Shown here: one piece after another, positions 14,035-61,958 of the stretch
Numbering within the stretch: position 1 is the stretch's first letter
Layout of the letters: every line of letters begins with the position of its first letter
Assembly: GCF_030285785.1 (NCBI RefSeq)
Contig: NZ_CP127247.1
Location: forward strand, 3,557,501 to 3,621,500
Length of the DNA: 64,000 nucleotides
Direction of reading: 5' to 3'
Source of the DNA: Parasedimentitalea psychrophila
Lineage (GTDB): Bacteria; Pseudomonadota; Alphaproteobacteria; Rhodobacterales; Rhodobacteraceae
Program-made: the position numbers and the translations under genes
The notes under the pieces: generated by a model
Told to the model about the DNA's origin: nothing
The model's database searches: none
The model's input: the letters and a program-made list of their open reading frames with translations, nothing else

Positions 14035-14236
14035 GCTGCGAGCGAAAACCGGACACAGAATCCATCGTTTAGCCAGAGCCGCCCCTTCTTCGATTGTTTC
14101 ATTGGCACTTTAAGCCCCTCACGTTTCCACAAACGCTCAACACGTTTGTTATTCACCCATTGCCGACAGGCGGTGTCTACACCGCCGAGAGGGGCCAGCC
14201 TGCGTCTCTTAACAAGGCAGACACCCGGCGGTAAGC
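14035..14236 (-). mobile_element. IS-F2, IS3-family OrfB fragment interrupted by hairpin element 1
   Basis: Read on the minus strand it repeats the IS-F1 segment (VERLWKREGLKVPMKQSKKG, RLWLNDGFCVRF), preceded by a YRRV-SALLRDAGW part. The two parts are separated by the 37-nt element at 14157-14193. When that element is replaced by AG (minus strand), the codons read GW-Q-VNNKRVE, matching IS-F1 (GW-Q-VNDKRVE). Confidence 0.8.
14157..14193 (+). repeat. Two-hairpin mini-element, instance 1 (in IS-F2)
   Basis: 37 nt: CCATTGCCGACA, then the hairpin GGCGGTGT-CT-ACACCGCC, then GAGAGGG. The first hairpin is degenerate here. It replaces exactly the CT seen in IS-F1 between ATTCAC and GCCAGCC. See the findings for the family. 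Confidence 0.8.
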
Positions 14237-14250
14237 GGATTAGAGCCCGG

Positions 14251-15429
14251 TCAGGTGCTACGATCGCGCATCCGGGTGCCTAGGCTCATTTTTTCTGCCA
14301 TCACTTCCGCCGCCTCCCTTAGTGGGTCACCGGCAATATGGGCATAGCGCTGCGTCGTCATAGGATTTGTGTGCCCAAGCAGGCGCCCAACGATTGCGAG
14401 ACTCATCCCGCTCGACACAAGCTGTGATGCGTGTGTGTGGCGATTGTCGTGGATGCGGTAGTCGCTGATACCGGCCTTCGAAAGAACGGATCGCCAGAAT
14501 TTCTTGAGATCCACAATCGGCTTGTTCTTAGATCTGCCCGGAAAGACGAACTCCGACCCGGCGGCACCGTTCTTGATCCGGCTCAATAGGGCCGCGGCTG
14601 CTTTGGAGAGCGGCAAGTGCTCTGTTCGCTTCTGTTTGGTATGGTGAGAGGGCTTGATCCATACACCGCGGTCGAGGTCGAAATTTTCCCATTTGGAAGT
14701 CAAAACTTCCCCGATCCGTGCGCCGGTTAGCAGTTGCAGGCGGATCGCATTCGCAGCTTTCTGGTTCGGATGATTGTCCAAAGCCACGCACAGACGGGTC
14801 AACTCGTCGCTAGACAACCATCGGTGCCTTTTTTCTTCGTGAAATCTCTCGATACCTTTGGCAGGGTTATCTGATCGCATTCCCCATTTGATCGACAACT
14901 CGAACATCTTTGACAGAAGTGCGAGAGCACGATTGGCTTGATATGGCGTCACTTTGAGCGAATTGTGAAACGTCTGAATATCCTTGTGACGAACGTCGCG
15001 GATCTTTTGCGAGGTGAACCTTGGCAAGATTAGGCGCGTAAGCATGGATCTGTCATTGGCCACGCTCTTTGGCCGCTTTTTGGGGATCGCGTGCACGTCC
15101 AAGTATTGCTGACAGAGATCTTGCATGATGGGTGCTTCGCGGACCATCTGTGCTTCTGTAACTGGATCTCCGCCGCGCAACACATCCGAAAGCAGTCCCG
15201 TCGCAATGTCCTTAGCTTGAGCAAAGGACATTAAGGGGCCGTGCTGGCCAATAGTCTTTCGGCGCGATCTACCGGTGGATCGCGTTCTGTATTGGACGAC
15301 GTAGGACTTCGTGCCGTTGAGTTTGACACGAACGCCGAAGCCCGGGAAAGATATGTCCCAGTAGATCAATTCCGCAGTCAGAGGTTGGAGTTTGTCGACG
15401 ACAGATTTTGATAATCGTTGCTTTGGCAT
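14251..15429 (-). CDS. int: Tyrosine integrase with DUF4102-type N-terminus, complete
   Basis: A 392-aa P4-type integrase. N-terminal arm-binding domain about residues 1-90 (IYWDISFPGFGVRVKLNGTK, RRKTIGQHGPLMSFAQAKD); core-binding domain about 100-190 (TPYQANRALALLSKMF); catalytic domain with Arg in LLTGARIGEV, IHDNRHTHAS, LLGHTNP and the nucleophile Tyr in TTQRYAHI. Note HDNRH where HxLRH is usual. It points away from a tRNA-Thr 3'-end sequence at 15611-15657, about 180 bp upstream of its start, the usual target of this integrase type. A second copy of that sequence lies at 27930-27976, so this enzyme may have inserted the intervening segment. Confidence 0.92.
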   Translation of the reverse strand: MPKQRLSKSVVDKLQPLTAELIYWDISFPGFGVRVKLNGTKSYVVQYRTRSTGRSRRKTIGQHGPLMSFAQAKDIATGLLSDVLRGGDPVTEAQMVREAPIMQDLCQQYLDVHAIPKKRPKSVANDRSMLTRLILPRFTSQKIRDVRHKDIQTFHNSLKVTPYQANRALALLSKMFELSIKWGMRSDNPAKGIERFHEEKRHRWLSSDELTRLCVALDNHPNQKAANAIRLQLLTGARIGEVLTSKWENFDLDRGVWIKPSHHTKQKRTEHLPLSKAAAALLSRIKNGAAGSEFVFPGRSKNKPIVDLKKFWRSVLSKAGISDYRIHDNRHTHASQLVSSGMSLAIVGRLLGHTNPMTTQRYAHIAGDPLREAAEVMAEKMSLGTRMRDRST

Positions 15430-15739
15430 TTTTTGCTCTCTGGCTAAAATTGGGTAAGCACTGGGTAAGCGCTAGGTAAGCATAAACGAGAGAATTTGTA
15501 AGAAGTAATGTAAAGGGGATCGAAGTGAAGTGTCAGAATCCCTTTACATTTATGGGCAATATGGAGCGGAAGAGAAATGTGTAGAAGCAGTGGAAAGTGC
15601 GGTCCGTAAGATTTGTAATCAGTAGGTCCGCGGTTCGAGTCCGTGTGGGGGCACCATTTCATCCAGCATTTTGCGTGTATAATCATGCATATAGGGTTGA
15701 AGTGCGTTCCTCATAGGTGACACATTAGGAGACACAAGC
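15430..15739. other. Intergenic region between divergent integrase genes
   Basis: It carries the tRNA-Thr 3' fragment described separately. Three nearly repeated GGGTAAGC-like motifs (TGGGTAAGCACTGGGTAAGC, GCTAGGTAAGC) lie at about 15450-15481, just upstream of the leftward integrase. They could be integrase arm sites, but this is inference. Confidence 0.4.
15611..15657 (+). other. Attachment-site-like tRNA-Thr(TGT) 3' half, copy 1
   Basis: The sequence runs from the anticodon arm (GATTTGTAATC, anticodon TGT) through the variable loop and T arm (GCGGTTCGAGTCCGT) to CACCATT. No D arm or matching 5' acceptor strand precedes it, so it is not a functional tRNA. Its first 39 bases recur exactly at 27930-27968. 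Confidence 0.75.
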
Positions 15740-16762
15740 GTGTCAGTCGTCATCTTTGAACTTGGAGCCATAGTCGTTTTGGCTAAGTATATTCATCTTA
15801 AGAAGAACTCAGAGGTTTGGTACTTCCGTCGTCGTGTTCCTGAGGATGTTCGCCACTACTACCCCAAATTGGGTAAGCGCGGTGAGATCTTCCATTCGCT
15901 CAAGACGAAAGATCCAATGGAAGCAGCAAGAATGGCTGATAAGTTGGCAACCCAGCAAGATAGTCTCTGGGATTCAGTGCGTGGCAATGTTAATCTAGTT
16001 GGGCCTGAAACGGTTGAGGTCGCTCATGCCATCCTTGATGCTCACGATTTGAAGCCCGGCCAAAAAGCTGAATATGATACCTACTGTATTGAGCCAGAGG
16101 ATTTCATGTCGACCTTGCGGATGGAAGCTGATGTGCACTCGGCCGATGACACTCGAGCCCGACCAAATTGGTTTCGTGAGGTGCCTCCTGAGTATCAAAT
16201 GGCCCAAGATTTGTTCAACGGGAAGAAAGCGCCATTGTTCCTGTCCGACGCATTGGTGAAATTTCAGGAACTTAAGGGGGAAGACCCAACCACCAAGAAG
16301 GGTGCTGATAGAGTTCGTGTTGTTGAAGACTTCATTGGTCTTGTCGGTAACCTTCAGATCCTAGATTACAGTCGAGAACACGCAAACGAGTACATTCACT
16401 ACTTGCTCACAGAGAAGGGCAACAAGACGGCAACGGTAAAGCGCCGACTCAATGGTTTGAGACCTGTATTCAAGACTGTGTGTCGTGAGTTTGAGCTGAC
16501 TGATCGCCAGATCTTTGAGGGGAACCACATTCCCAATCTTGGAGAGGATTCCAAGGACCGGCTCCCATTCACCAATACGGAACTCCAGACCATCTGGTCG
16601 GCTTGTGTTCAACAAGATGATGATATGCGTTGGATTATTGCATTGATGATCGACACTGGCATGCGTCTTGGCGAAGTCGTTGGCCTTAAAGTCGAAGACA
16701 TCAAAATCGATGATCCTTCGCCATACGTCATAGTGAGACCCAATGATGCCCGATCCCTCAAG
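15740..16762 (+). pseudogene. Second tyrosine recombinase, 3' end cut by IS-A2
   Basis: About 341 codons from a GTG at 15740 that follows GGAGACACAAGC. The N-terminal part carries an integrase arm domain (KNSEVWYFRRRVPEDVRHYY, FHSLKTKDPMEAARMA), then a core-binding region and the start of the catalytic domain with its first Arg (IDTGMRLGEVVGLKVEDI). IS-A2 joins at ARSLK before the HxxR, His and Tyr residues, so it cannot recombine DNA. It is a different subfamily from the two DUF4102-type integrases in the window. Confidence 0.85.
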
Positions 16763-16825
16763 TGGACCTGTCACGGTATTGTTCCGCCCCTTTGAGAGCA
16801 TATTCTGCCCCAAAGGAGATACACC

Positions 16826-17101
16826 ATGGCACCACGACCATCCGAAGAATTCAAACGCGACGCAGTGCGGATCGCACTGACCAGCGGGCTGACCCGCCGA
16901 CAGGCGTCCTCCGATCTTGGGGTTGGTATGTCCACCCTGTGCAAGTGGATCGGAACCTATCGTGACGCGGACGTTGTTTCGAAAGAGGATCAGGAACTGG
17001 CCAATGAGAACGAGCGCCTTCGCCGGGAAAACCGCCTTCTACGTGAGGAGAGGGAGCTGCTAAAAAAAGCAACAATCTTCTTTGCGGACCAAAGCAAATG
17101 A
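16826..17101 (+). CDS. IS-A2 OrfA
   Basis: 91-aa helix-turn-helix/coiled-coil protein of an IS3-family element, nearly identical to the IS-A1 OrfA. It overlaps orfB by ATGA, which suggests translational coupling or frameshifting between the two frames. Confidence 0.93.
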   Translation: MAPRPSEEFKRDAVRIALTSGLTRRQASSDLGVGMSTLCKWIGTYRDADVVSKEDQELANENERLRRENRLLREERELLKKATIFFADQSK

Positions 17102-17955
17102 GGTTTTCATTTGTTGAAAAGCACCGCAATAGCATTCCCACAGAGCGACTTTGCCGGATTGTGGATGTCACCCCACGTGGCTACCGAGCCTGGCGCAAAC
17201 GCCCTGCCTGCCAGCGTCAACGTGGGGATATGGTTCTGTTGGCCCACATCCGGGAGCAGCACCGCCTGAGTTTGCAGAGCTACGGCCGACCGAGAATGGT
17301 CGAAGAACTGAAAGAGCTTGGTCTGGATATTGGTCACCGCCGTGTCGGCCGATTGATGCGCCAGAACGGCATATCTGTTGTCAGAACCCGTAAGTACAAG
17401 GCCACAACGGACAGCAATCACAAGTTCAACATCACGCCAAACCTGCTGAACCGGAACTTCTCAGCAGATCGACCCAATCAAAAATGGGTTGTTGATATCA
17501 GCCACATCTGGACCCGCGAGGGCTGGCTCTATCTGGCCGTGGTTCTGGACCTGTACTCCAGGCGCGTGGTCGGTTGGGCTGTCAGCAACCGGATGAAGCG
17601 CGATCTGGCCATACGGGCGCTGAACATGGCCATAACCCTGCGCAGGCCGCCCAAAGGATGCATCCATCATTCTGATAGGGGCAGCCAATATTGCTCGCAG
17701 GATTACCAGAAAATCCTGCGCCGGTATGGCTTCAAGGTATCCATGAGCGGCAAGGGTAATTGCTATGATAACGCCGCAATGGAAACCTTCTTCAAAACCA
17801 TCAAAGCGGAATTGATCTGGCGGCACTCTTGGCAAACCCGCAGGGCTGCTGAGATCGCCATCTTCGAGTACATTAATGGGTTCTATAATCCCCGCCGGAG
17901 ACACTCGGCATTAGGCTGGAAAAGTCCCTTGGCTTTTGAAAAGATCGCCGCCTAA
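17098..17955 (+). CDS. IS-A2 OrfB transposase, intact
   Basis: A 285-aa DDE transposase. The HTH_21-like segment (LQSYGRPRMVEELKELGLDI) is followed by the integrase core: Asp in WVVDISHIW (about 132), Asp in IHHSDRGSQYCS (about 195) and Glu in DNAAMETFFKTIKAEL (about 230), the D-D-35-E arrangement of IS3. It gives the intact reference for the damaged IS-A1 gene: the GSQYCSQDYQ segment at 17689-17706 is the one rewritten in IS-A1. This copy is likely to be active. Confidence 0.93.
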   Translation: MRFSFVEKHRNSIPTERLCRIVDVTPRGYRAWRKRPACQRQRGDMVLLAHIREQHRLSLQSYGRPRMVEELKELGLDIGHRRVGRLMRQNGISVVRTRKYKATTDSNHKFNITPNLLNRNFSADRPNQKWVVDISHIWTREGWLYLAVVLDLYSRRVVGWAVSNRMKRDLAIRALNMAITLRRPPKGCIHHSDRGSQYCSQDYQKILRRYGFKVSMSGKGNCYDNAAMETFFKTIKAELIWRHSWQTRRAAEIAIFEYINGFYNPRRRHSALGWKSPLAFEKIAA

Positions 17956-18149
17956 ATGAGCACAAGGGGCGGAACGAAAGCGGGACAGGTCCAGACCTTT
18001 AAAACTGCCAGCAAGAATGTCCGAGAAGCCTGCACCGAAGCGGTCATCGGACAGTCCATCAAAGGAGGAATTCTTGCAGAGTACTGAGCGACAATTTCAG
18101 GTTTTTGTGGTAAAATGGGGCGTGGTTTCACGAGTTGGAGGGTTTTGGT

Positions 18150-25305: not shown

Positions 25306-25308
25306 GAT

Positions 25309-26127
25309 CTAAGCCTTTGTAGAAGCGGCAGGCCAGTCGTGCCCTTCGTCTGTTGCGTCTCGCGCCCACCGATAGAAGGCATCATAGAGCGTCATCCCGG
25401 CCTCAAGCTGTTCCAGGTCGTCACGGTACATCCGTGACAAGCCCAATGATATCGCCAGCAAACCCGCCGCCTCGGGTGCCAGATCATGCTTGTTGGTATC
25501 AGCGCCGCGAACGACTAGAGCCAGTTTCGCGAGTGCGTCATTTCCTACCCCAAACTCCTCGATCAAGGTGTCAAAAGTGCATGTGTCGCCACGGTGGCTC
25601 CAGAATACGTCTTCAATATCGAAGGGAGTTGCACTGAAACGCTGCGCGACATTGTTCACTTGCGATGCCGCAACGAACAAAATTTGAGCTCTTGGATCAA
25701 TGAACCTTCGAATGAGCCAAGGACAGGCAATTCGATCAATCTTCGGTCTATGGCGCGTCACCCAGACTGTGCGCCCAGTTGCGTCCAAAGGCGGCATCTT
25801 CTCTGTCAAAACCATCGGATGTCCGGCATCTCTCCAGGCAAATTGCCCGCCTTCGAGAACTTCCGCTTGAACACCGCAACTGCGCATCAGGGCAGCCGCG
25901 CCCTGACTGATCTTCAGGCCCTTTTGACAATAAACGATAACCGACCGACCTTTGAGGTCATCAGCCAGATCAATCACATTCAGAAAGGGGTGGCGATACG
26001 CTCCGGGGATCAGCCGGGGGTCATCGTCGAAATCTTCATCGGTGCGCACATCGAGCAAAACAGGACAATCAGGTGTTCCCACCAAGCGAGCCAAAGTAGA
26101 AACGGGAATTTCATTGTACGACGCCAT
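25309..26127 (-). CDS. chrB: ChrB-type chromate resistance protein with rhodanese domain
   Basis: A 272-aa protein. The N-terminal rhodanese-like domain (residues about 5-110, VLLDVRTDEDFDDDPRLIPG and VIVYCQKGLKISQGAAAL, with the Cys of the active-site loop) is followed by the ChrB C-terminal domain (WVTRHRPKIDRIACPWLIRR, FDTLIEEFGV, and the late helix around LGLSRMYRDDLEQLEAGM). ChrB proteins act as chromate-responsive regulators of the operon in some bacteria. A strong AAGGAGG precedes the ATG at 26127. First gene of chrB-chrA-(chrC remnant). Confidence 0.92.
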   Translation of the reverse strand: MASYNEIPVSTLARLVGTPDCPVLLDVRTDEDFDDDPRLIPGAYRHPFLNVIDLADDLKGRSVIVYCQKGLKISQGAAALMRSCGVQAEVLEGGQFAWRDAGHPMVLTEKMPPLDATGRTVWVTRHRPKIDRIACPWLIRRFIDPRAQILFVAASQVNNVAQRFSATPFDIEDVFWSHRGDTCTFDTLIEEFGVGNDALAKLALVVRGADTNKHDLAPEAAGLLAISLGLSRMYRDDLEQLEAGMTLYDAFYRWARDATDEGHDWPAASTKA

Positions 26128-26551
26128 AAAGCATCCTCCTTAAGAAGTTTAAACTGGAAGGATGCAAGATCAGGCTGGCGCCTCACGGGGTTCTTGCGGA
26201 CCCCAGAGTTCCATCTTTAAGTGCTAACTGATCGGCTGTCAAACTTCAGAGCGGACATTGGTCGCAATGTAGAATATTTAAAGAATGGACTCTGACCAGC
26301 CATTCGCTGCACCATCCACGAAGGTCGGCAGTGGGCCGTTCGCGACAGTTGGGCCAGCAACAGTGAATGACAGCAAGGTGCTGCATAGCCGCCGTCTGAC
26401 GGGGGTTAATTGGAGTCTTCTTCGGTAACACGCCGGTGACGATGATCGGCTCACGCGCGGTTTCCCATGACTGAATGTGATTGGTTGGAACGCGCGCATT
26501 CTTGCGCGCCTTCCGTCCATTTGTTGCGGAGATGTGGGCCCTTGACCGGGG
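26128..26551. other. Intergenic region upstream of chrB with dispersed-repeat fragments
   Basis: It contains the chrB promoter region, where no clear boxes were assigned. At 26297-26400 lies a repeat-like segment (CATTCGCTGCACCATCCACG, CAGTGGGCCGTTCGC, TGCATAGCCGCCG) related to the dispersed repeats at 23.8, 46.4 and 53.6 kb. No credible gene. Confidence 0.45.
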
Positions 26552-42795: not shown

Positions 42796-43043
42796 GGCGT
42801 TGTTGCAGAACAGACGCCTGAGGGGTGACTTCCCCTTTCCCCATAGAGTTCAACCCACGCGAACGATCTCGGCCGTGCCGAGGGCCGAGAAGCGGTTCAA
42901 CAAGGCGATGCGGATGTGGATTTCGGCGGTCCGGGTCTCGCGCCATGATGCGCTCGCCGAATGTTTTGAGGCATCGCATCCACTGCCCGGCAGTGGTTTG
43001 CCTGCAAACCATGAGAGGGTGGCTTCGACGCGACTTCGAGTAG
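42796..43043 (-). mobile_element. IS-D2, IS5-family remnant interrupted by hairpin element 2
   Basis: It starts with GGCGTTGTTGCAGAA like IS-D1 and encodes, on the minus strand, the end of the same transposase (TAEIHIRIALLNRFSALGTA). The 40-nt element at 42980-43019 splits it; elsewhere it is close to IS-D1, with a short deletion at ARDPDRQ. Similarity to IS-D1 ends near 43043. Confidence 0.83.
42980..43019 (+). repeat. Two-hairpin mini-element, instance 2 (in IS-D2)
   Basis: 40 nt: CCACTGCCCGGCAG, hairpin TGGTTTGC-CT-GCAAACCA, then T GAGAGGG. IS-D1 has GCATCGCAT-CT-TGGCTTCGACG here, so the element stands exactly in place of CT. Sequence identical to instance 3. Confidence 0.88.
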
Positions 43044-45079: not shown

Positions 45080-45875
45080 TCATAACCAGAAGATCACGGT
45101 TGCTGCGAGAGCGATGGCGGACAGGAAGACCTTCGGGCATCGGTCATAACGGGTAGCCACGCGCCGCCAGTCTTTCAGGCGACCAAACATGATCTCAATC
45201 CGGTTACGTCTTTTGTAACGACGCTTGTCGTACTTGATGGTTTTGTCTCGCGACTTTCGTCCAGGGATGCAGGGCGTTATTCCCATATCTACAGGGGCCT
45301 CTCGGAACCAATCCGCGTCATATCCGCGATCTCCCAATAGCCAGTCGGCCGCTGGCAGACTATTCACCAGAGCTCTTGCCCCAGTGTAATCGCTAACCTG
45401 ACCGGCGGTCAGGAAGAACTGGATCGGCCGCCCAATCGCGTCCACTGCCCGGCAGTGGTTTGCCTGCAAACCATGAGAGGGGGCACGGCATGCAACTTCG
45501 TGTTCATACCGCCCTTGGTACGTCCGATCAGACGTCCACGCCCCCTTTTTTTACCCGCAGGCTGGAGGCCGTGCGATGTGCCTTGAGGTAAGTTGCGTCA
45601 ATTGAGATCGTCTTGTTGTCAGGAACCTCGGCTGCCAGCCCCATCATAATCCGCGCGAACACCCCCATGTCGCTCCACCGTTTCCAGCGGTTGTAGAGCG
45701 TCTTGTGTGGACCATACTCCTTGGGCGCATCACACCAACGCAACCCATTGCGATTGATGAAAATAATACCACTTAACACTCGGCAATCATCGACCCGTGG
45801 CACGCCATGACTCTTCGGAAAATAGGGCCGAAGCCGTGCCATCTGATCTTCGCTCAGCCAGAAAAGATTACTCAT
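45080..45875 (-). pseudogene. IS-E transposase: frameshift type, interrupted by hairpin element 3
   Basis: First frame 45875-45528 (MSNLFWLSEDQMARLRPYFP) carries the first Asp (ISIDATYLKAHRTASS). At GTAAAAAAAGG a -1 shift leads into the second frame (RGRGRLIGRTKGGMNTKLHA), as is usual for IS427-type elements. The 40-nt element at 45442-45481 then breaks that frame. Replacing it by AG restores KLHAV-P-DAIGRPIQ, and the rest follows with the second Asp (LLGDRGYDADWF) and Glu (KRRNRIEIMFGRLKDW). The start codon region and the length are otherwise normal. Confidence 0.88.
45442..45481 (+). repeat. Two-hairpin mini-element, instance 3 (in IS-E)
   Basis: 40 nt, identical in sequence to instance 2. 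Putting CT in its place restores the transposase frame (minus strand GTG CCA GAC GCG). Confidence 0.88.
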
Positions 45876-48593: not shown

Positions 48594-49820
48594 GGCGGTT
48601 TCAACGGGTCGACGCAACACTTTAGTCTTTAGCCAAAGATGGAGTGTAAGCCATGAAGTATCGTCGCCGAGTATTTTTCACGGATAAGCAGAAGTCAGAA
48701 ATCTGGGATCGATGGCAGCGCGGAGAGTCGATGAGTTCGATTGGACGTGGTTTTGATCGCGCATCATCATCGATTTATCCCCTCCTTGCGCGCACAGGCG
48801 GCATCCGTCCACCGGACCGCATGAGGTCGCGCCTCGCTCTGACCCTGATCGACCGAGAAGAGATATCCAGAGGCCTGCGTGCGAAGGTGTCGTTGCGTTC
48901 AATAGCCCGAACCCTGAAACGACCAGCGTCCACAATCAGCCGCGAAGTTGGGCGCAATGGCGGCGTTCAAAACTACCGTGCAACAGCTTCAGATGCAGCG
49001 GCGTGGGACCGTGCCCACCGCCTAAAGCCCTGCAAGTTGGAAGGCAATATCTATCTCTACCGCGCGATATCGGCCAAGCTGACGCGTAAATGGTCCCCGC
49101 AACAAATCGCAGGCTGGCTGATGCGCGAACATCCCAATGAGGAGGGTAAACGGGTCTCCCATGAGACGATCTACCGAAGCCTATTTATCCAGGCACGCAA
49201 TGTACTTAAGAAAGAATTGCTGTCGCACTTGCGGGCGACGCGATCCATTCGTCGCTCTCGCCACGCCACCATGAAGCGCAGCGGCCTTTGCCAAATCAAG
49301 GACACTATATCGATCCGACAAAGGCCGGCGGATGTGGAAGACCGTGCCGTTCCAGGACACTGGGAAGGCGATTTGATCGCCGGTTCTGGCAACAGCTTCA
49401 TTGCCACGTTGGTCGAGCGACATACGCGTTATGTGATGCTGGCCAAGGTTGGCAGCAAAGACAGTCACAGCGTTGTTCAGGCGCTGATCAAGCAAGCTCA
49501 CAAACTACCAAAAGAACTCTACCGTTCACTGACATGGGATCGTGGAAGCGAGATGGCGGGGCACAAAAATTTTACCTTGGCGACTGATATCGACGTCTAT
49601 TTCTGTGATCCACGATCACCGTGGCAACGCGGCACGAACGAAAATACCAACCGTTTGCTGCGACAGTACTTCCCAAGGGGCACAGATTTGTCGATACATA
49701 GTCAAGCAAAGCTGAGTGCCGTCGCAAGACAGCTCAATGAACGACCTCGAAAAACGCTAGGATATGAGACACCAGCCGAGCGTTTCAATGCATGTGTTGC
49801 ATCGACCCGTTGAAACCGCC
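48594..49820 (+). mobile_element. IS30-family element, copy 1, intact
   Basis: 1227 bp with inverted ends GGCGGTTTCAACGGGTCGA and a 2-bp target duplication GC on both sides. Dispersed-repeat fragments flank it on both sides. Confidence 0.92.
48653..49813 (+). CDS. IS30-family transposase, intact
   Basis: A 386-aa transposase. The N-terminal helix-turn-helix region (WDRWQRGESMSSIGRGFDRA; VSLRSIARTLKRPASTISRE) recognises the IS ends. The C-terminal DDE core has Asp in HWEGDLIAGSGN (about 245), Asp in LTWDRGSEMAGH (about 300) and Glu in RGTNENTNRLLRQYFPRGTD (about 335). It is about 40 aa longer than the shorter IS30 enzymes but within the family range. It is the intact reference for the damaged copy at 60700-61965. 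The extra start MKYRRRVFFTDKQK fits the ATG at 48653, which lies 9 nt after TGGAG. Confidence 0.92.
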   Translation: MKYRRRVFFTDKQKSEIWDRWQRGESMSSIGRGFDRASSSIYPLLARTGGIRPPDRMRSRLALTLIDREEISRGLRAKVSLRSIARTLKRPASTISREVGRNGGVQNYRATASDAAAWDRAHRLKPCKLEGNIYLYRAISAKLTRKWSPQQIAGWLMREHPNEEGKRVSHETIYRSLFIQARNVLKKELLSHLRATRSIRRSRHATMKRSGLCQIKDTISIRQRPADVEDRAVPGHWEGDLIAGSGNSFIATLVERHTRYVMLAKVGSKDSHSVVQALIKQAHKLPKELYRSLTWDRGSEMAGHKNFTLATDIDVYFCDPRSPWQRGTNENTNRLLRQYFPRGTDLSIHSQAKLSAVARQLNERPRKTLGYETPAERFNACVASTR

Positions 49821-49960: not shown

Positions 49961-50023
49961 CACTTTCAGCTCAAAGAGACGAGCAGAGCTCTTGACGTTT
50001 TGAATTTTTTGCCGGACATGTCG

Positions 50024-50222
50024 CATTGATGGTTTCCGGAAGACGAATGTGATTCCGGAATGAAATGGGAATACGGTGAGGAATAGCCAACAGGCGCCGA
50101 ATCCGTAACTGCCCCCGCAACTGTAAGTGGCGAGCAAACCCGGTGAACACCACTGAACGCACAAGCGTTTGGGAAGGTTCGGGCAAGCGATAACCCACGA
50201 GTCAGGAGACCTGCCATCAATG
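50024..50222 (+). promoter_or_regulatory. Cobalamin riboswitch
   Basis: The conserved cobalamin riboswitch core is present: GGGAATACGGTGAGGAA, GCCAACA, the B12 box-like ACTGCCCCCGCAACTGTAAG, and GGGAAGG...CGAGTCAGGAGACCTGCC. The ends CATTGATGG (50024-50032) and CCATCAATG (50214-50222) form a perfect 9-bp P1 stem. It precedes the DUF1636/ABC operon and would switch it off when cobalamin is abundant. Confidence 0.95.
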
Positions 50223-50335
50223 ATGCAACTTTAACCCGGGCGGGGTGTCCGGACAGGAGGCCATGATGGCTTTACGGATTAATCCGTTCGGAAATACATG
50301 TCTGAATTATACCCCGCGCTTTCGCGGAGGGCGAC

Positions 50336-53593: not shown

Positions 53594-53690
53594 ACACTTA
53601 CTGTGCATAGCCGCCGTTGGAGCGGGTCGCAGCGTGGGCCCGCTGTCCGCCCTTCGTGTCGGATGCTGCACCGCGCACCAAGGTCTTAAA
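53594..53690 (-). repeat. Dispersed repeat copy upstream of the IS1111-type element
   Basis: On the minus strand: ACCTTGGTGCGCGGTGCAGC, ATCCGACACGAAGGGCGG and CGCTGCGACCCGCTCCAACG followed by GCGGCTATGCACAG. It joins the two halves seen separately at 20729 and 55137. Confidence 0.6.
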
Positions 53691-53789
53691 GGGGCGAAAA
53701 GCAGATGGGTTGGATGGCTCCTGCTCCAACCGGCGTCGCTTGGCGCCATTATGCAGGTGTCGAAATCTGCGAATGAGGGGAGCCACCCA

Positions 53790-54850
53790 ATGCAAGTTAC
53801 AACAGTTGGCCTCGACCTGGCCAAGAACATCTTTCATGTGCACGGTATCACTGATGCAGGTGAAGTCGCATTCAATCGCCCGTTGCGCCGTGCGCAGGTG
53901 CTGGCATTTTTTAAGCGCCTTGATCCTTGTTTGGTCGGGATTGAAGCCTGCGGTACCAGCCATCACTGGGCGCGCGAGCTGAGCCAGGTGGGACATGAAG
54001 TACGGCTTATCCCGCCGATGTATGTCAAACCTTATGTGAAGCGCGGCAAGTCTGACGCGATTGATGCGGAGGCTATTTGCGAAGCAGTCACGCGGCCCAC
54101 GATGCGGTTTGTTGAAATCAAATCGGTTGACCAACAAGCGCTTCTGTCCTTGCACCGGGCACGAAGTCTGATTGTTCGACAACGCACCCAATTGATCAAT
54201 GCGCTTCGCAGTCTGTTGGCCGAGTTTGGTATCTACATTGCCCGTGGCCTCGCACGGGTGATCAGCTTTGCGCAAAGTGTGGTCGAAGGCGTTGAACTGG
54301 AACTTCCCACTATTGCGCAGGACGTGTTCCGCAATCTGTGCCAGCGGCTTGGAGCCCTTCATGAGCAGGTGAAATGGTATGAGACACGTCTGAGATTGGA
54401 GGCGAAGCGAGACGCGCGCGTGAGGCTCTTGCAAACAATACCTGGCGTCGGCACTGTCACGGCATCTGCGATCGCTGCTAGCATTGGCGATGGCCATCAG
54501 TTCAGGAATGGTCGAGAGTTTGCTGCGTGGATAGGATTGACGCCTGCCAACAAATCGAGTGGTGGGAAAGAGCGATTAGGCCGGATCACCATCCCTCTCG
54601 GGACATCGCATGGCGATGCCCTGCCGGGCAGCGGATGGGTGATCAATATCTGCGCCAGCTCCTTGTCGTAGGAATGACATCGCTTGTGCGACAGACTCGA
54701 TCCCACCCGGAAAGGGCGAGTAAATGGCTAACAGCCCTTTTGGAACGCAAACCAGCACGCTTAGCAACTGTGGCAATGGCGAATAAAACGGCACGGATCG
54801 TCTGGGCAGTTTTGACAAAGAATGAGCCGTACACGCCGAGAACAATCTGA
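53790..54850 (+). pseudogene. IS1111-type transposase interrupted by hairpin element 5
   Basis: ATG 53790 (MQVTTVGLDLAKNIFHVHG), preceded by GGGGAG. The RuvC-like DEDD domain has Asp in GLDLAKN, Glu in LVGIEACGTSHHW and the Asp pair in KSDAIDAEAICEA. The C-terminal domain has LQTIPGVGTVTASAIAASIG and FAAWIGLTPANKSSGGKERL. After GRIT the frame enters the element at 54593. The true continuation (MGDQYLRQLLVVGMTSLVRQ to TPRTI, stop 54848-54850) is out of frame. Replacing 43 nt by AG gives GRIT-K-MGDQYLRQ and a normal 339-aa protein. Confidence 0.87.
54593..54634 (-). repeat. Two-hairpin mini-element, instance 5 (in IS1111-type transposase)
   Basis: 42 nt read on the minus strand: CCGCTGCCCGGCAG, hairpin GGCATCGC-CAT-GCGATG with TCCC, then GAGAGGG. 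One more base (A) separates it from restored sequence than in the other instances. Confidence 0.85.
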
Positions 54851-54988: not shown

Positions 54989-55030
54989 CCACTGCCCGGC
55001 AGGGCATTGCGCAGCAATGTCCCGAAAGGG
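54989..55030 (+). repeat. Two-hairpin mini-element, instance 6 (non-coding end of IS1111-type element)
   Basis: 42 nt: CCACTGCCCGGCAG, hairpin GGCATTGC-GCA-GCAATG with TCCC, then GAAAGGG. The second hairpin differs from instance 5 by a compensating C-to-T and G-to-A pair. Confidence 0.82.
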
Positions 55031-56304: not shown

Positions 56305-56410
56305 GAACAGGCCTCGCATAAGGTTTTCTAATGCGACCCTGCATGAAACCCAGTTTGACCGCAAGGCTTTCCAACCTCAGGTTTAACACTAGCAAACAAA
56401 GTTGGACGCC

Positions 56411-57937
56411 ATGCAGCATTTTTCGTTTCTCGAAGACCACGAAGTCAAACGCATTCACGACGCTTCGCTGGAGATTCTCGCACAGACTGGATTGTTGGTT
56501 CGCAACAAAAAGGCCCGCGACCGTTTTGCCGAACATGGCGCAAATGTAGACGAGCCAAACGAAATGGTGCGGATCCCGCCAGAGGTGGTCGAGCGCTATC
56601 TGGCGTTGGTGCCACCAACTATCACTCTACGCGGCCGAGATCCGAAATACGACGTGACCTTTCCGCGTAAGCTGCCGGTTGTTGCGACGGCCAGTTCAGC
56701 GCCCGATATTGTGGATCCGGTGTCTGGCGTGACCCGCCGTGCGACCTCGGATGACATCGCCCGGATTGCTCATGTCGTGAACGAGCTGGACGGGTTCGAC
56801 GTATTTTCGATCTCGGTGCTGGCGGACGATGCCCCCGACGGTCATTTCAATCTTTCACGCTTCTACCCGGCGCTTAAAAACTGTCTGAAACCTGTGCGTA
56901 CATCGGTGGTCAATGTTGAAGAGGCCAAGAAAATCCTGAAACTCGGTGAATTGGTCGCCGGTTCGCCCGAGGCATTTTGGAAAAGGCCGTTCATCAACTT
57001 TGGCTATTGCTCTATCGTAACGCCGCTGACGATGGATTTTGACAGTACAGAAAACCTGATGTTCTTTGCCGAAAATGGGATCACGGCTTATGGCACCGTG
57101 GCGCCGATGGGCGGGATAAATACGCCCCTGTCACTGCCCGGCATGATGACACTGATCAACGCAGAATGGCTGGCCACCATGTGTCTGGCGCAGATGTCTC
57201 GCGCGGGAACTGAACTGATATACAACTTCCTGCCTGTCTTTGCTGACTTGCGCGATGGGGCCTATGCCCCCGGAGCCATCGAAGTGGGCATGATGAACTC
57301 GATCGTGTGTCAGATGGCGCGGCGATACAACGTACCGGCAGGTGGGTATTTGGGGCTGACAAACTCCAAGATCTCGGATGCTCAGGCGGGGTATGAAAAA
57401 AGCATGTCACCGCTGTTGGGGGCTTTGTCTGGTGTGAATTTTGTGGTCATGGGCGGTTTGCTGGACGCACTGATGTCGCTGGATTTTGGTCAGTTGGCGA
57501 TCGACAACGAAATTGCCTGCATGATCAAACGTGTACGCGAAGGCGTGACCTTCAACGAAGACACCATCGCCTTGGACGACATCAAACGCATTGGCCCAGC
57601 AGGTATGTTTGCCGATGCTCCGATGACGCTGGAAAACATGACCACAGCAACATTCATGCCGGAACTGGCGGATCGCGATCTGCGCGAAACATGGATGGAA
57701 AACGGATCCTCTACCATTCATCAGCGGGCACTGAACAAGGCAATGGCGATCTTGTCGTCCCCCAACCACGCTGCTTTGGACGCCGAAACAGACCAACGAA
57801 TAAAGGCGCATTTCCAAGGCATTGTGGCCGGAGATTCAACCCTTCCCGTCGGATGGAAACCTTTTGCAATCGGCGGTGAAAAACCACAGCGGGCCCGACG
57901 TCAGAACCGGCGTTCAAAAAAGAAAATGCAAGTTTGA
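56411..57937 (+). CDS. MttB-family (trimethylamine methyltransferase-like) protein, no pyrrolysine
   Basis: A 508-aa TIM-barrel protein: VVATASSAPDIVDPVSGVTR, IAHVVNELDGFDVFSISVLA, GTVAPMGGINTPLSLPGMMT, GAYAPGAIEVGMMNSIVCQM, YLGLTNSKISDAQAGYEKSM. Members transfer a methyl group from a quaternary amine to a corrinoid protein. No in-frame TAG occurs, so it is the non-Pyl subtype, whose members use glycine betaine, proline betaine or carnitine. No corrinoid-binding partner protein is encoded nearby. ATG 56411 replaces an in-frame TTG at 56402. It is followed 14 bp later by the flavoprotein gene. Confidence 0.88.
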   Translation: MQHFSFLEDHEVKRIHDASLEILAQTGLLVRNKKARDRFAEHGANVDEPNEMVRIPPEVVERYLALVPPTITLRGRDPKYDVTFPRKLPVVATASSAPDIVDPVSGVTRRATSDDIARIAHVVNELDGFDVFSISVLADDAPDGHFNLSRFYPALKNCLKPVRTSVVNVEEAKKILKLGELVAGSPEAFWKRPFINFGYCSIVTPLTMDFDSTENLMFFAENGITAYGTVAPMGGINTPLSLPGMMTLINAEWLATMCLAQMSRAGTELIYNFLPVFADLRDGAYAPGAIEVGMMNSIVCQMARRYNVPAGGYLGLTNSKISDAQAGYEKSMSPLLGALSGVNFVVMGGLLDALMSLDFGQLAIDNEIACMIKRVREGVTFNEDTIALDDIKRIGPAGMFADAPMTLENMTTATFMPELADRDLRETWMENGSSTIHQRALNKAMAILSSPNHAALDAETDQRIKAHFQGIVAGDSTLPVGWKPFAIGGEKPQRARRQNRRSKKKMQV

Positions 57938-57951: not shown

Positions 57952-60447
57952 ATGACCAAAGCCTTTCCCACATCGGCCCGTATCATCGTCATTGGTGGCG
58001 GAGCCATCGGCACCTCGATCGCCTATCACCTTGCAAAGTCCGGCGAACGGGACGTCCTTCTGCTCGAAAAAACCCGTCTGACCGAAGGCGCCACATGGCA
58101 TGCGGCTGGTTTAGTGGGGCAGTTCCGCTCGCAACAGAACCTGATGAGCCTGATGAACGACTCTGTTTCGTTGTTTGACGGGCTGGCCGCGGACACCGGG
58201 CAGGAAATCGGCTGGCGCAAAGTTGGGTCAATGCGCGTGGCTGGCAGTCAGGACCGCTGGCAAGAGCTGTTGAAATCACATTCCGCAGCTCGCGCTGTCG
58301 GATTTGATATGGAATTGCTGACACCAAAGGAAGCGCAGGAACTCTATCCACTGATGCAGGTAGAGGATTTGGTGGGTGCGGCTTTCATTCCCGAAGACGG
58401 TCATGTTGATCCCTATTCTCTGACCCAGGCCTATGCCAAGGGCATCCGAAAATACGGCGGCCGCGTCATCGAAGGTGTTATGGTGACCGATCTGGTACGT
58501 CAGAATAATCGCATCAGCCATGTCGTCACCGATCACGGCACTGTTGAGGCTGACATCGTCGTCAATGCTGCGGGTCTCTGGGCCCGACAGGTTGGCAAAA
58601 TGGCGGGCGTTGAACTGCCTGCGGGGATCGTGCAGCATCAGTATTTCGTGACTGAAAAAACGTCGGACATCCCAGATGACCTACCAGCGTTTCGCGACCC
58701 GGATGGGGGTTATTATGCCAAACCCGAGCCCGGCGCGCTTGCCATTGGCGGCTGGGAACGAACCACAGACAAGGTCAACCCGAAAGAGGGTTTCCCCTGG
58801 GAAAACGCCCGCCATCTGTTCGATACCAATATGGACCGGATGGAAGAAGTGTTCCTTCCCGCCGCGCATCGTTTGCCCCTGTTGAACCACTTGGGAGTGC
58901 GCACAGTTGTAAATGGTCCGATCCCAATTTCACCGGATGGCGAACCGGTCATGGGTCCGGTATCTGGCCTGCAAAATTTCTTTGTTGCCTGCGCGTTTAC
59001 CTCAGGGATTGCAGCCTCGGGCGGGGTCGGCAAGGCGGCGGCGAACTGGATTTTGAACGGCGATCCCGGTTTGGATCTTTGGGCGTTTGATTTGCGCCGC
59101 TTTGGGCCCTTGCAGTCGGGTCAAAAATTTCTCCACGACCGCGCCGTCGAAAGTTACACAAAATACTACGATATCCATTGGCCCGGCGAAGAGATGCAGA
59201 CCGCACGGATGGTGCGCCGGTCGCCGATTTATGATCGCCTGAAACAAGACGGTGCCGTTATGGGCTCCAAGTTCGGCTGGGAACGCGCCAATTGGTTTGC
59301 CCACAGTGGTATTGCGCAAAAGGATCAATTTGGGTTCGATCGCGCGGGGCAGGCCGAAACGGTTGGACGCGAACACAGGGCCGCGCGCGAGACTGCAGTC
59401 CTCACCGATCAGACATCATTCACCAAATTCGAAATTTCCGGTTCCGGTGCCTGTTCCTTTCTTCAGTATCTGGCAGTCGCAAATGTCGACAAGCCAGTTG
59501 GTGGCGCCGCATACACACAGCTATGCAACGAACGCGGTGGCATAGAGGCTGATGTGACAATCATACGTCGGGCAGAGGACTGTTTCTGGCTGATCACCGG
59601 TTCTGCCTTAGGCGAGCGGGATAGAGATTGGATTGATAGGAATTTGGAAACCTACCGCAAAAAGTTCACAGATGACTGGGTTGCGCGTGGGGAACAATGG
59701 GAGCGGTCGAGCCGCCCAGGTGGACCTGATATTCAGATACGAAACATCACTTCTGCGCTGGGGGTGTTGAACATCCAAGGCCCAAAGGCGCGTATGATCT
59801 TGCAAAAACTATGCGACGAAGACCTTGGCAATGAGGCTTTTCCGTTCATGACGGCCAAGGACATCCGTGTTGGTTACGCCCCTGCACTTGCGTATCGCGT
59901 CACCTATGTTGGAGAGCTGGGTTGGGAATTATACATTCCGACCGAGTATCTAGCCTATGTCTATGAAATCTTGCTCGAAGCGGGCACCGTCGAGGGTCTG
60001 ATCAACATGGGCTATCACGCGATCGACTCGCTTAGGCTGGAAAAACGCTATTTGGCTTGGGGGCCGGATATCAATTCCGACAACAATCCGTTTGAAGCCG
60101 GTCTTCAGTTTCTAATCGACTGGGGCAAGGGCGATTTCATTGGCCGGGACGCCTTGACCAAAATTCGGGAAAACGGGGTGAAACGGAAAATGACTGCCCT
60201 GCTGTTGGACGATCCGTTGCCGGTCTTCGGTGGCGAAGCGGTATATTTCAACGGCAATGTTGTTGCGCAAACAACGTCAGGAAATTTTGCTTACACTCTC
60301 GGAAAACCTATCGTGTTGGCCTACTTGCCAACTGGGATTGATCTCGGCTCCGGCGTTCTTGAAGTTCAGTCCTTTGACCAGAGATCCGCCGCGACTGCCG
60401 TGAAAGGAATACCATACGATCCTCAGCGTGAAAAAATTCAATGCTGA
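57952..60447 (+). CDS. Dimethylglycine/sarcosine dehydrogenase-like flavoprotein with GcvT domain
   Basis: An 831-aa protein. The N-terminal FAD-binding oxidase domain begins ARIIVIGGGAIGTSIAYHLA (about 10-29), and His50 in TEGATWHAAGLVGQF is the usual covalent FAD site of DMGDH/SARDH enzymes. An FAO_M-type linker is followed by the C-terminal aminomethyltransferase-like folate-binding half (LTDQTSFTKFEISGSGACSF, LNIQGPKARMILQKL, SDNNPFEAGLQFLIDWGKGD). The probable reaction is oxidative N-demethylation of dimethylglycine, sarcosine or an analogue. It overlaps no stop but follows the MttB-type gene by 14 bp, so both are one operon under the divergent LysR protein. Confidence 0.92.
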   Translation: MTKAFPTSARIIVIGGGAIGTSIAYHLAKSGERDVLLLEKTRLTEGATWHAAGLVGQFRSQQNLMSLMNDSVSLFDGLAADTGQEIGWRKVGSMRVAGSQDRWQELLKSHSAARAVGFDMELLTPKEAQELYPLMQVEDLVGAAFIPEDGHVDPYSLTQAYAKGIRKYGGRVIEGVMVTDLVRQNNRISHVVTDHGTVEADIVVNAAGLWARQVGKMAGVELPAGIVQHQYFVTEKTSDIPDDLPAFRDPDGGYYAKPEPGALAIGGWERTTDKVNPKEGFPWENARHLFDTNMDRMEEVFLPAAHRLPLLNHLGVRTVVNGPIPISPDGEPVMGPVSGLQNFFVACAFTSGIAASGGVGKAAANWILNGDPGLDLWAFDLRRFGPLQSGQKFLHDRAVESYTKYYDIHWPGEEMQTARMVRRSPIYDRLKQDGAVMGSKFGWERANWFAHSGIAQKDQFGFDRAGQAETVGREHRAARETAVLTDQTSFTKFEISGSGACSFLQYLAVANVDKPVGGAAYTQLCNERGGIEADVTIIRRAEDCFWLITGSALGERDRDWIDRNLETYRKKFTDDWVARGEQWERSSRPGGPDIQIRNITSALGVLNIQGPKARMILQKLCDEDLGNEAFPFMTAKDIRVGYAPALAYRVTYVGELGWELYIPTEYLAYVYEILLEAGTVEGLINMGYHAIDSLRLEKRYLAWGPDINSDNNPFEAGLQFLIDWGKGDFIGRDALTKIRENGVKRKMTALLLDDPLPVFGGEAVYFNGNVVAQTTSGNFAYTLGKPIVLAYLPTGIDLGSGVLEVQSFDQRSAATAVKGIPYDPQREKIQC

Positions 60448-60699
60448 TTTAGTCTTTTTCCTTTTGCTGCACGAGGATCGGGAGGGAATGTCATAATTCC
60501 TCCTTATAGAATCCTTCCAGCATGGCCCGTCGTGTCATTTGGGAAAACATAGAGTTGCCAGTTTATTTCTCTTTCTAGTGAACGTCGGGAATCGGTAAAT
60601 CAGAGACCAAATTCGCAATTATAGCGTATGACCGGTTCTCGCCGTTGCTGCATGAGCCGCCTTTTCCGCCGGGCGAGTGAATGAACGTCGTGTATGGGC
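60448..60699. other. Intergenic region between the dehydrogenase and IS30 copy 2
   Basis: No gene. A fragment near 60640-60698 (CTCGCCGTTGCTGCATGAGC, GGGCGAGTGAATGAACG) may be degraded dispersed-repeat DNA. No terminator could be assigned. Confidence 0.4.
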
Positions 60700-60758
60700 G
60701 GCGGTTTCAACGGGTCGGCGCAACACTTTAGTCTTTATGGAAAGACGGAGTGTAAATC

Positions 60759-61958
60759 ATGGCCTATCGCCGCGGACATTTTTTTACAGATAAACAGAAG
60801 TCGGAGATCTGGGATCGTTGGCAACGCGGAGAGTCGATGAGTTCGATTGGACGTGGATTTGATCGTGCATCATCATCTATTTATCCGCTGCTGGCGCGCA
60901 CCGGTGGTATCCGTCCGCCAGATCGTATGAGGTCCCGTTTGGCTCTGAGTCTGGCTGAACGCGAGGAGATATCACGAGGCCTGACTGCGCAACTATCTGT
61001 GCGATCAATTGCGAGATCCTTGAAACGGTCTGCGTCGACCATCAGCCGCGAGATCCGGCGCAACGGTGGTGCCAAACTTTACCGTGCGGCTCAATCAGAT
61101 GCAGCGGCATGGGCTCGTGCCCATCGGCCAAAGCCCTGCAAACTGGCAGGCAATATCTATCTATGTCCACTGCCCGGCAGTCGATACGAAGTATCGATGA
61201 GAGGGGGCGACATCGGCCAAGCTGACCCGCAAATGGTCCCCGCAACAAATCGCAGGTTGGCTGATGCGCGCACATCCCGATGAGGAAGACAAACGGGTCG
61301 CCCACGAGACGATCTACCGAAGCCTATTTATCCAGACACGCAATGTACTTAAGAAAGAATTGCTGTCGCACTTGCGGGCGACGCGATCCATTCGTCGCTC
61401 TCGCCACGCCACCATGAAGCGCAGCGGCCTTGGCCAAATCAAGGACACTATATCGATCCGACAAAGACCGGCGGATGTGGAAGACCGTGCCGTTCCAGGA
61501 CACTGGGAAGGCGATTTGATCGCCGGTTCTGGCAACAGCTTCAGTGCCACGTTGGTCGAGCGACATACGCGTTATGTGATGCTGGCCAAGGTTGGCAACA
61601 AAGACAGTCACAGCGTTGTTCAGGCGCTGATCAAGCAAGCTCACAAACTACCAAAAGAACTCTACCATTCACTGACATGGGATCGTGGAAGCGAGATGGC
61701 GGGGCACAAAAAACATTTACCTTGGCGACTGATATCGACGTCTATTTCTGTGATCCGCGATCACCGTGGCAACGCGGCACGAATGAAAACACCAACCGTT
61801 TGCTGCGACAGTACTTCCCAAGGGGCACAGATTTGTCGATACATAGTCAAGCAAAGCTGAGTGCCGTCGCAAGACAGCTCAATGAACGACCTCGAAAAAC
61901 GCTAGGATATGAGACACCTGCCGAGCGTTTCAATGCATGTGTTGCGTCGACCCGTTGA
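60759..61958 (+). pseudogene. IS30 transposase with mini-element 4 and a second frameshift
   Basis: The first 137 codons match copy 1 (diverged in the helix-turn-helix part). At GNIYL-C the 39-nt element (61167-61205) breaks the frame. With CT restored the codons read GNIYLCLATSAKLTRKW, matching GNIYLYRAISAKLTRKW of copy 1. A second break lies at GHKK (ACAAAAAACATTTACC against ACAAAAATTTTACC in copy 1). The end of the protein from TFTLATDIDVY onward is nearly identical to copy 1, suggesting recombination or gene conversion of the 3' part. Confidence 0.9.
61167..61205 (+). repeat. Two-hairpin mini-element, instance 4 (in IS30 copy 2)
   Basis: 39 nt: CCACTGCCCGGCAG, hairpin TCGATAC-GAA-GTATCGA, then T GAGAGGG. 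It replaces CT between CTATGT and GGCGACATC. Confidence 0.88.

Follow-up and report, generated by a model that had tools for sequence, protein, structure and literature searches.

A probable family of non-autonomous DNA-hairpin mobile elements living mainly in insertion sequences

Introduction

A stretch of 64,000 nucleotides from the genome of Parasedimentitalea psychrophila (NZ_CP127247.1, positions 3,557,501 to 3,621,500, hereafter the window) holds six short sequences of a common two-hairpin plan, lodged in or beside the transposase genes of unrelated insertion sequences (ISs). What are these sequences, and how did they come to lie in such different hosts? The reading favoured here, to which we give a probability of about 0.7, is that they belong to one family of non-autonomous DNA-hairpin mobile elements of some 35-45 nt living mainly in ISs.

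The copies of the window and their hosts

All six copies listed in the initial annotation are present in the letters of the window with the positions and strands given here, and a covariance model (R1) returned the same six and no further ones at E≤0.05. The host families that the annotation had named (IS3, two IS5 groups, IS30 and IS1111 types) agree with Pfam or with frame likeness. The first copy (14157..14193, + strand), which carries the variant constant part CCATTGCCGACAGG, lies in antisense inside an IS3-family orfB relic, named by the likeness of its frame to an orfB with Pfam domain HTH_21, and has an uninterrupted homologue at about 11136 of the window. The second (42980..43019, +) lies within the 3′ portion of a transposase gene of the IS5 family (IS1031-like). 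This gene was assigned through the likeness of its frame to that of the IS5 transposase at 9453-10391, its own frame giving no Pfam match; the uninterrupted homologue is found at about 10855. Another IS5 group (DUF4096/DDE_Tnp_1) hosts the third copy (45442..45481, +), an insertion that recurs with identical flanks in eight IS copies of the window's genome. Two further copies accompany an IS110/IS1111-family transposase gene (53634..54671, +; DEDD_Tnp_IS110, Transposase_20): one at 54593..54634, on the - strand, occupies the last part of the frame, and the other at 54989..55030 (+) adjoins the gene, at a position that holds unlike stems in other genomes. Finally, the copy at 61167..61205 (+) splits an IS30-family transposase into frames of 174 and 198 aa; six element-bearing IS30 copies, one of them partial, occur in the fetched DNA, and an IS30 transposase without the element (48650..49810, +) provides the uninterrupted homologue.

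Structure of the element

The element comprises a constant 5′ part, C(A/G)(C/T)TGCCCGGCAG, a hairpin of free sequence, one pyrimidine and the constant 3′ end GAGAGGG. The length, originally given as 37-42 nt, widens to 35-45 nt over 172 sites. The free-sequence hairpin has mostly 6-8 bp and is closed by a mini-loop of DNA type. That it varies in sequence while staying paired, as had been claimed from the window, is borne out by strong covariation over 107 distinct rows, in which 94.5% of the cells pair (72.9% when shuffled) and double-sided changes occupy 209 cells, against 65.9 in shuffled alignments and 15-29 with slid partners; the rows are related sequences and were aligned to fit the structure, a procedure that favours the pairing signal. 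As for the small first hairpin, its constancy holds, in the form of a nearly constant palindrome CTGCC-C-GGCAG that by this very constancy lies beyond proof of pairing by covariation; in 5 of the 107 rows the outer pair has changed on both sides, to T-A. CACTGCC...GGCAG presumably resembles the repeat hairpin of type I-F CRISPR systems, a likeness limited to the first hairpin.

When folded as RNA, five of the six window copies do not form the constant hairpin, their CCC pairing with the 3′ GGG; with DNA parameters it does form in four of six copies tried. Of 133 triloops, counted in related sequences, 83 are of the C-GNA-G kind; T-TT-A or C-TT-G loops number 37. GNA and TT loops such as these are favoured when single-stranded DNA folds, whereas RNA-stable loops are of another kind. 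The constant pairing may reflect selection on the folded form or copying through it, as the initial annotation proposed, and the loop types suggest that the folded form is DNA and not RNA.

Copy number and distribution

Matches to the pattern CTGCCCGGCAG-N(8-32)-GAGAGGG number 67 in the 5.0-Mb genome of the window and none in the reversed control, which excludes chance, and the covariance model found 134 copies at E≤0.001. The initial annotation had taken a lack of further copies in genome searches as the outcome that would speak against mobility; many were found, in many genera of Rhodobacteraceae and across many sequencing projects, on chromosomes as well as plasmids, the latter for instance in Dinoroseobacter, Phaeobacter and Leisingera (the pattern matches outside the window's genome numbered 152, or 136 after a fold-energy cut). 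Genomes within one genus carry 145, 24, 4 and 0 copies, which indicates bursts, and a congener of the window's genome carries one; the numbers for the two richest genomes are lower bounds, i.e., at least 134 and at least 145.

The genome holds 109 constant palindromes, 67 of them with the exact 3′ end, and among 100 listed genomic occurrences of CTGCCCGGCAG, 82 fall within a copy found by the model and 18 outside. In the fetched loci, most of them selected for having both parts, the 3′ end comes after 249 of the 256 constant palindromes. It is unlikely that the element is the end of a larger one.

No element of the window reaches the gathering threshold of any Rfam family, and at E≤1 two further loci (L025 and L238) gave nothing on the elements except one weak snoRNA match overlapping an edge (18.4 bits against a cut-off of 38 bits). 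In open-access PMC text, subscription papers being outside the scope, we found no description of such an element, and among the matches listed for CTGCCCGGCAG and CCCTCTCGGG none was titled on one.

Insertion sites

An uninterrupted homologue exists for 73 of 145 own copies within 351 kb of fetched DNA, and there are filled and unfilled IS copies with flanks (up to 241 nt) that are 98-99.6% alike. At 25 of 39 sites, comparison with such homologues reveals that the element went in with no target base gained or lost; at ten others one further base, and at one site two bases, are lost or shared, so that the 3′ end of the element is imperfectly defined. Among the 25 clean sites, seven have a junction base that differs from the first base of the element. 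There is no target duplication, and the target logo is weak, YCRTC^G (172 of 212 sites used), with a junction trinucleotide that varies (ATC in 47 and GTC in 29 of the 172) and that is also present in uninterrupted sites.

One exact nucleotide of an IS5 is empty in 11 homologues and filled in nine, and in the corresponding tree, drawn without the filled row L078 because of its short flank, presence is scattered and a single clade is rejected. Together with the many copies and the empty homologous sites, this scatter upholds the mobile-element reading proposed from the window. The same positions have been filled in unrelated branches, and ISs carry elements along. Net insert length is a multiple of three in only 30 of 172 sites, and the two orientations with respect to the transposase gene are about equal (89 sense, 92 antisense). 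Nor was a bias by replication strand seen, with 41 against 46 of 87 single-copy sites when the origin is assumed at base 1; as IS200/605-type transposons often show such a bias, its lack weighs against the favoured reading.

Preference for insertion sequences

Insertion in transposase genes of unrelated ISs, another feature noticed in the window, holds for most copies: 154 of 191 copies lie within 45 nt of transposase homology, compared with 13 of 240 control tiles taken from 20 seeded random 10-kb stretches. The transposase set grew from 16 seeds to 474 ORFs by BLAST likeness within the fetched loci, and some of these may not be transposases, an effect bounded by the 13/240 of the random tiles; ten of ten further ORFs sent to Pfam were transposases or IstB, and the host ISs span many families. 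An earlier control, of fourteen 15-kb stretches at round positions with no copies and with transposase homology in 1 of 252 tiles, was withdrawn, its positions having been picked with the copy list already in view. The claim of a copy-free ordinary chromosome was dropped with it, since the seeded stretches held six matches to the covariance model at E≤0.05 and five at E≤1e-4, four of these five in one stretch; an even spread of the 191 counted copies would put about 7.9 in the 200 kb. The random stretches are thus not free of copies, which slightly weakens the favoured reading and the parasite class considered below and slightly strengthens untargeted insertion.

The preference may have arisen without any targeting. 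Insertion could be indiscriminate, the surviving elements being those that landed harmlessly and multiplied with their ISs or that were favoured for silencing a harmful IS, and this we regard as a possible, if doubtful, explanation. In its favour, no transposase homology lies within 400 nt of 15 of the 120 distinct own sites, and three matches are intergenic. Moreover, element-bearing ISs do multiply, as shown by an IS3 with five elements present in five near-identical full-length copies, and they move between classes, since Vreelandella (Gammaproteobacteria) and Oceaniovalibus share a 1.87-kb stretch, element included, that is 96.5% alike. Presence of the element also tracks mobile-element load, genomes with Y1, Y2 or reverse-transcriptase genes all carrying it more often. 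However, 169 of 212 distinct sites (a count without short-flank contexts and without 22 named loci whose matches were put down to chance or to coding sequence) are seen in a single copy, so IS amplification alone does not make the preference, and 93 of the 120 distinct own sites lie within 45 nt of transposase homology, against the 13 of 240 random tiles. In addition, one degenerate IS often holds several elements, and repeated silencing would be useless there, presuming that the IS was already off.

Mode of spread

Spread through a small structured RNA that is reverse-copied into DNA is unlikely. Such a mode, or one other than DNA transposition, has reportedly been suggested for the double-hairpin elements of Allomyces mitochondria: according to the available text of PMC2800124, on sponges, these lack target duplications, and on that ground a different mode was proposed, which we interpret as an RNA-mediated one. 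The absence of target duplication is common to these elements and the one described here. Compensatory variation, likewise compatible with RNA-mediated spread, is also known from the stems of the Allomyces elements. Against it, the window's genome gave no match to the reverse transcriptase model RVT_1, the loops are DNA-stable, and both strands of transposase genes are hit about equally. Genomes with a reverse transcriptase do carry the element more often (19 of 53, against 29 of 145 without; p 0.025).

Movement by a RAYT (Y1) transposase, as for REP/REPIN repeats, is very unlikely. The present element shares with these repeats palindromes of 20-40 nt, high copy number, mobility at the DNA level with DNA-type hairpins and no target duplication, and among 198 genomes it is found in 9 of 18 with Y1_Tnp compared with 39 of 180 without (p 0.017). 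Nevertheless, Y1_Tnp has no match in the window's genome, where at least 134 copies lie, nor in 39 of the 48 element-positive genomes. REP/REPIN repeats are extragenic and carry a GTAG tetranucleotide at the foot of the hairpin, whereas the present element has other constant parts, no GTAG and copies mostly in transposase genes; the REP/RAYT link raised by the initial annotation is thus not sustained. Since Y2 and reverse transcriptase show the same weak association, all three probably reflect mobile-element load. The strongest is that with Y2 (11 of 21 genomes against 37 of 177; p 0.005), which has four matches in the window's genome, three with full-length open frames. An IS91/Helitron-type (Y2) origin was rejected, the ends of three resident IS91-type copies, read by eye, being unlike the element, which is moreover present inside a Y2 gene (L233).

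Also very unlikely is a translational bypass or splicing of the element, as in byp elements, with the host transposase still being made. It would account for pairwise dN/dS values of 0.10-0.40 among the six IS30 copies despite the broken frame, and for the orfB frame of the five-element IS3, which is open across four junctions once the elements are left out. Differences along the gene, however, reveal the IS30 copies as mosaics with a common 5′ half, so that these differences need not postdate insertion, and recombination accounts for this one apparent signal of purifying selection; in the five-element IS3 the terminal part of orfB is missing, and the rarity of net lengths divisible by three, along with the balance of sense and antisense copies, also opposes a bypass. 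The comparison with byp elements made at the outset is thus unsupported. Lastly, the probability that the copies are ordinary IS parts or an artefact is negligible: some ISs do carry the element in every fetched copy within a genome, but empty IS copies exist, against what the initial annotation had considered as a counter-case (73/145 with an uninterrupted homologue; the IS5 site), and many genera and sequencing projects are represented.

Comparison with known systems

The element lacks at least one defining feature of each known family with which it was compared, though less clearly so for the double-hairpin elements. Mitochondrial double-hairpin elements of Allomyces and other fungi, and the hairpin repeats of sponges, are likewise small, mobile and built of hairpins. 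In contrast, the present element is bacterial, lies mostly in IS transposase genes at the target YCRTC^G, and varies only its second hairpin, the first being nearly constant and the end a constant GAGAGGG. The CGTC-tagged palindromic repeats of alphaproteobacteria are also short palindromes and are said to lack a dedicated transposase, according to the available text of PMC3733652, in which CGTC is an unpaired repeat tag with a CCA-type tail; both structure and 3′ end differ from the present element, in which the preceding RTC is target, present in uninterrupted sites. The words Rhodobacter and Roseobacter are absent from the main text of that article.

The present element mostly breaks the frame of its hosts, which are mostly ISs, unlike Rickettsia palindromic elements. 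The latter are short palindromic inserts in coding genes as well, but they are longer and lie in frame in cellular genes. RUP and other MITEs, like the palindromic elements derived from IS200/IS605, are non-autonomous too, and RUP is said to favour IS targets; the present element differs from MITEs in having neither terminal inverted repeats (its ends, CACTGCC and GAGAGGG, are no inverted repeats of each other) nor target duplication. Single-strand transposition of the IS200/IS605 type recognises hairpins and, with no target duplication, places the DNA 3′ of a short target sequence. The present element agrees in its short 5′ target, its lack of duplication and its hairpin, but this mode needs a Y1 HUH transposase, for which the window's genome gave no Y1_Tnp match.

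Proposed mechanism

For a family of DNA-hairpin elements, as preferred here, the moving form may be single-stranded or extruded DNA, its hairpin being recognised by shape. A putative enzyme acting in trans would make one cut on the 5′ side of the constant palindrome and another on the 3′ side of GAGAGGG, and the same enzyme might join the excised piece to RTC^G. Preference for ISs could come from targeting or from easier access to IS DNA, the data being compatible with targeting and selection alike, and tolerance and hitch-hiking in ISs may help. Furthermore, recombination between neighbouring elements, with loss of the intervening IS, is suggested by a few cases such as the 3793480-type deletion, both borders of which are RTC^ targets in an intact IS3.

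More tentatively, and as a view that we hold to be rather doubtful, the element may represent a class of parasites of transposable elements, i.e., a gene-less hairpin of about 40 nt whose insertion machinery prefers IS DNA, for instance in a state passed during transposition. ISs would thus have minimal parasites of their own that accumulate in them, reshape them through recombination between elements and spread along with them to other genera and classes.

Implications

If confirmed, these would be among the shortest mobile elements, with their home mainly inside insertion sequences. The uninterrupted, filled, hybrid and shortened sites of two genomes provide a dense natural record of how a bare hairpin may be mobilised, a question common to the CGTC repeats and the mitochondrial double-hairpin elements. 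The element will also disturb IS annotation in Rhodobacteraceae, and it would be one more factor that fragments and reshapes IS populations.

Copies and folding

The six window copies claimed by the initial annotation were confirmed in position and two-hairpin plan, and R1, a covariance model whose training set was 11 copies (41 nt each), found the same six and no others in the window (E ≤ 0.05). In the 5.0-Mb genome of P. psychrophila, where the window spans 3557501–3621500, the exact pattern occurs 67 times, against none in the reversed control, and R1 gave at least 134 matches at E ≤ 0.001 (150 of 4922 candidates scored). Counting in stretches chosen for holding copies yielded 191 places (351 kb with 145 at E ≤ 0.05, and a further 118 kb with 46 at E ≤ 0.01), which is not the full total, since one further copy lies in a random stretch (L258). 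Of 100 listed occurrences of the constant palindrome in this genome, 18 lie outside any model-found copy; among them CTGCCCGGCAG occurs without the 3′ end twice in one shared context (L002:2557, plus strand; L016:4232, minus strand).

The consensus reads C(A/G)(C/T)TGCCCGGCAG, followed by a stem of mostly 6–8 bp with its loop, one pyrimidine and GAGAGGG, for a length of 35–45 nt, mostly 38–42 (n = 172 sites). That the second hairpin varies while its pairing is kept was borne out by two-sided changes at all eight stem pairs; the first hairpin hardly varies in sequence, and covariation cannot probe it. Among 215 parsed hairpins, from related sequences, the loop has three bases in 133, 83 times as C-GNA-G, and two bases in 64, of which 37 read T-TT-A or C-TT-G. 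In single-stranded DNA the GNA and TT loops are the especially stable kinds, and the GCGAAGC mini-hairpin has been used in published work. Under DNA folding parameters the constant hairpin formed in four of six copies tried and the variable one also in four, being shortened in a fifth; the six fold z-scores run from −1.3 to −3.3.

Elsewhere in the window, Rfam marks a cobalamin riboswitch (50013–50232, plus strand) and a chrB-a RNA (26125–26209, minus strand), and a PYLIS_3 match (mttB pyrrolysine insertion sequence; 57356–57463, plus strand) scores 38.9 against a 38-bit cut-off within the open frame 56402–57937.

Host sequences

With seven transposases as seeds, transposase homology lay within 500 nt in 115 of 145 contexts of this genome, and ten ORFs chosen from the remaining contexts proved to be nine transposases and one IstB (IS256, IS6, IS5, IS110, IS3 and IS21 types). 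Once the seed set included these ten, 123 of 191 copies lay within 45 nt of homology, compared with 9 of 240 tiles cut from 20 random stretches of the same genome (200 kb in all); with like ORFs also added the figures rose to 154/191 and 13/240, and within 400 nt to 175/191 and 20/240. Counted as distinct sites of this genome, 93 of 120 fall within 45 nt and 105 within 400 nt of transposase homology, and 15 stay unassigned. At E ≤ 1e-4, R1 also matched five places in the random stretches, four of them within a single one. Three short-stem matches are intergenic (L050, L128 and L143, from Leisingera and one MAG); their stems, GCGGC...GCCGC, follow similar AATAYTC-type stretches, and these are the clearest non-IS locations. 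From the transposase proximity counts and these intergenic matches, the elements prefer ISs strongly, yet occur elsewhere too.

Orientation relative to the transposase gene is even (89 sense, 92 antisense; 181 contexts, near-copies included), and neighbouring copies are less than 500 bp apart in 81 of 190 gaps. At L037:3542-4402 an IS5 transposase frame of 287 aa stays open across two oppositely oriented elements, both of which recur in sister copies at 445749, 2660403 and 4795674.

Insertion sites and recurrence

An uninterrupted homologue was found for 73 of 145 copies, within the same 351 kb. Junctions could be read to the base at 39 distinct sites, from this genome and named loci, with homologues 80–98% alike. 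At 25 of them exactly one base stands in the uninterrupted site where the element would be, and in 18 of these it equals the element's first base; the element thus starts after that base, with no duplication or loss of target. The other 14 show one further base (ten sites), none (three) or three bases (one); in five of the ten the further base gives CG, and there the target may have supplied the final G of GAGAGGG. Insertion is at YCRTC^G (n = 172 sites), with T at −1 in 58%, A or G at −2 in 78%, C at −3 in 58%, C as first base in 74% and G at +1 in 69%. Flanks of filled and unfilled copies are 98–99.6% alike at 445749, 3787907 and 2204367 (the last without a clean join), so some insertions are young.

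Merging the 307 contexts leaves 212 distinct sites; 43 of these are present in several copies, and 13 have unlike stems in the same orientation at the identical nucleotide. ISs may be targeted or only tolerated: single-copy sites (169/212) and the size of the IS preference speak for targeting, and the copies outside ISs speak for some generality of insertion. For one IS5 position, a tree built from the flanking sequence of 9 filled and 11 empty rows, together with 2 that have an internal deletion, required 7 state changes, with clustering no better than for shuffled labels, and a single clade of filled and deleted rows was rejected (p-AU 9e-49). With 10 of 19 inner branches weak and ISs recombining, the tree shows scattered presence at this site, by repeated gain, loss or both, and gives no exact number of events. 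The two deleted rows, L083 and L137, hold shortened derivatives, CCGCTGCCCGAGAGG(G), in which the whole variable hairpin is absent between CCCG repeats, a loss that would fit slippage at a DNA hairpin.

Recombination is seen in mosaic IS30 copies, where an element-bearing 5′ half joins two different 3′ halves (window 48650–49810 versus 3618667, 3687397 and others), so IS copies exchange sequence. In a few cases elements bridge host-IS deletions. In the type at 3793480 and 4143898 both flanks meet RTC^ in an intact IS3 (L005; GTC^GG and CATC^), as if two inserted elements had recombined. At 850975 the element's 3′ flank is found at another element too, but its 5′ flank differs and reads CATC^GG in L035.

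Spread

Sampling one genome per genus, the exact pattern occurs in 48 of 198 across the family, though a few of these matches are unpaired and probably due to chance. The order sample gave 34 positive genomes out of 149, and the class sample 10 out of 289: this genome, two family members and seven others, of which two look real judged by their stems. Named records among the matches listed are nearly all Rhodobacteraceae or Rhodobacterales, and close matches also occur in 96 plasmid records. An IS together with its element has passed between classes, the copies in Vreelandella neptunia (Gammaproteobacteria, L046) and Oceaniovalibus (Alphaproteobacteria, L148) being 96.5% alike across 1.87 kb.

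Genomes of one genus hold 145, 24, 4 and 0 R1 copies, and the congener of the window's genome holds 1. G256, another genome, has an IS3 with five elements in five full-length copies (L238–L242, e.g. L238:665-1945) that are 99.5–100% alike, besides two partial ones. When its elements are removed by script the second frame is open across four junctions, and the fifth element bridges the lost transposase end; these copies presumably move in trans. An IS21-type locus in three copies (L243–L245) bears several more elements within 1.8 kb.

Mode of movement and relation to known elements

The lack of duplication, the short 5′ target, the 3′ hairpin with DNA-type loops and the precise joining suggest single-strand transposition, the mode of IS200/605, IS91 and Helitrons. 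The co-occurring Y1/RAYT gene that the initial annotation suggested looking for did not appear, this genome giving no Y1_Tnp match; with no RVT_1 match there either, and IS91 ends unlike the element, we can only infer the mode of working. An IS91-family element of about 2.6 kb with full-length Y2 transposase occurs three times in the genome (L230:2528-5103 and two in L231), its copies 99–100% alike. Genomes with the hairpin element carry Y1, Y2 and reverse transcriptase genes somewhat more often than those without (p = 0.017, 0.005 and 0.025, respectively), an association that we read as mobile-element load.

No Rfam family fits the element, searches of open-access literature found no description of it, and each bacterial family considered fails at least one tested defining feature. 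Mitochondrial double-hairpin elements are nearest in behaviour (PMC2800124) and CGTC repeats, said to be without dedicated transposase, nearest in host (PMC3733652). We place the element within the broad kind of short mobile hairpin repeats, as a variant of its own, though it may be something categorically new.
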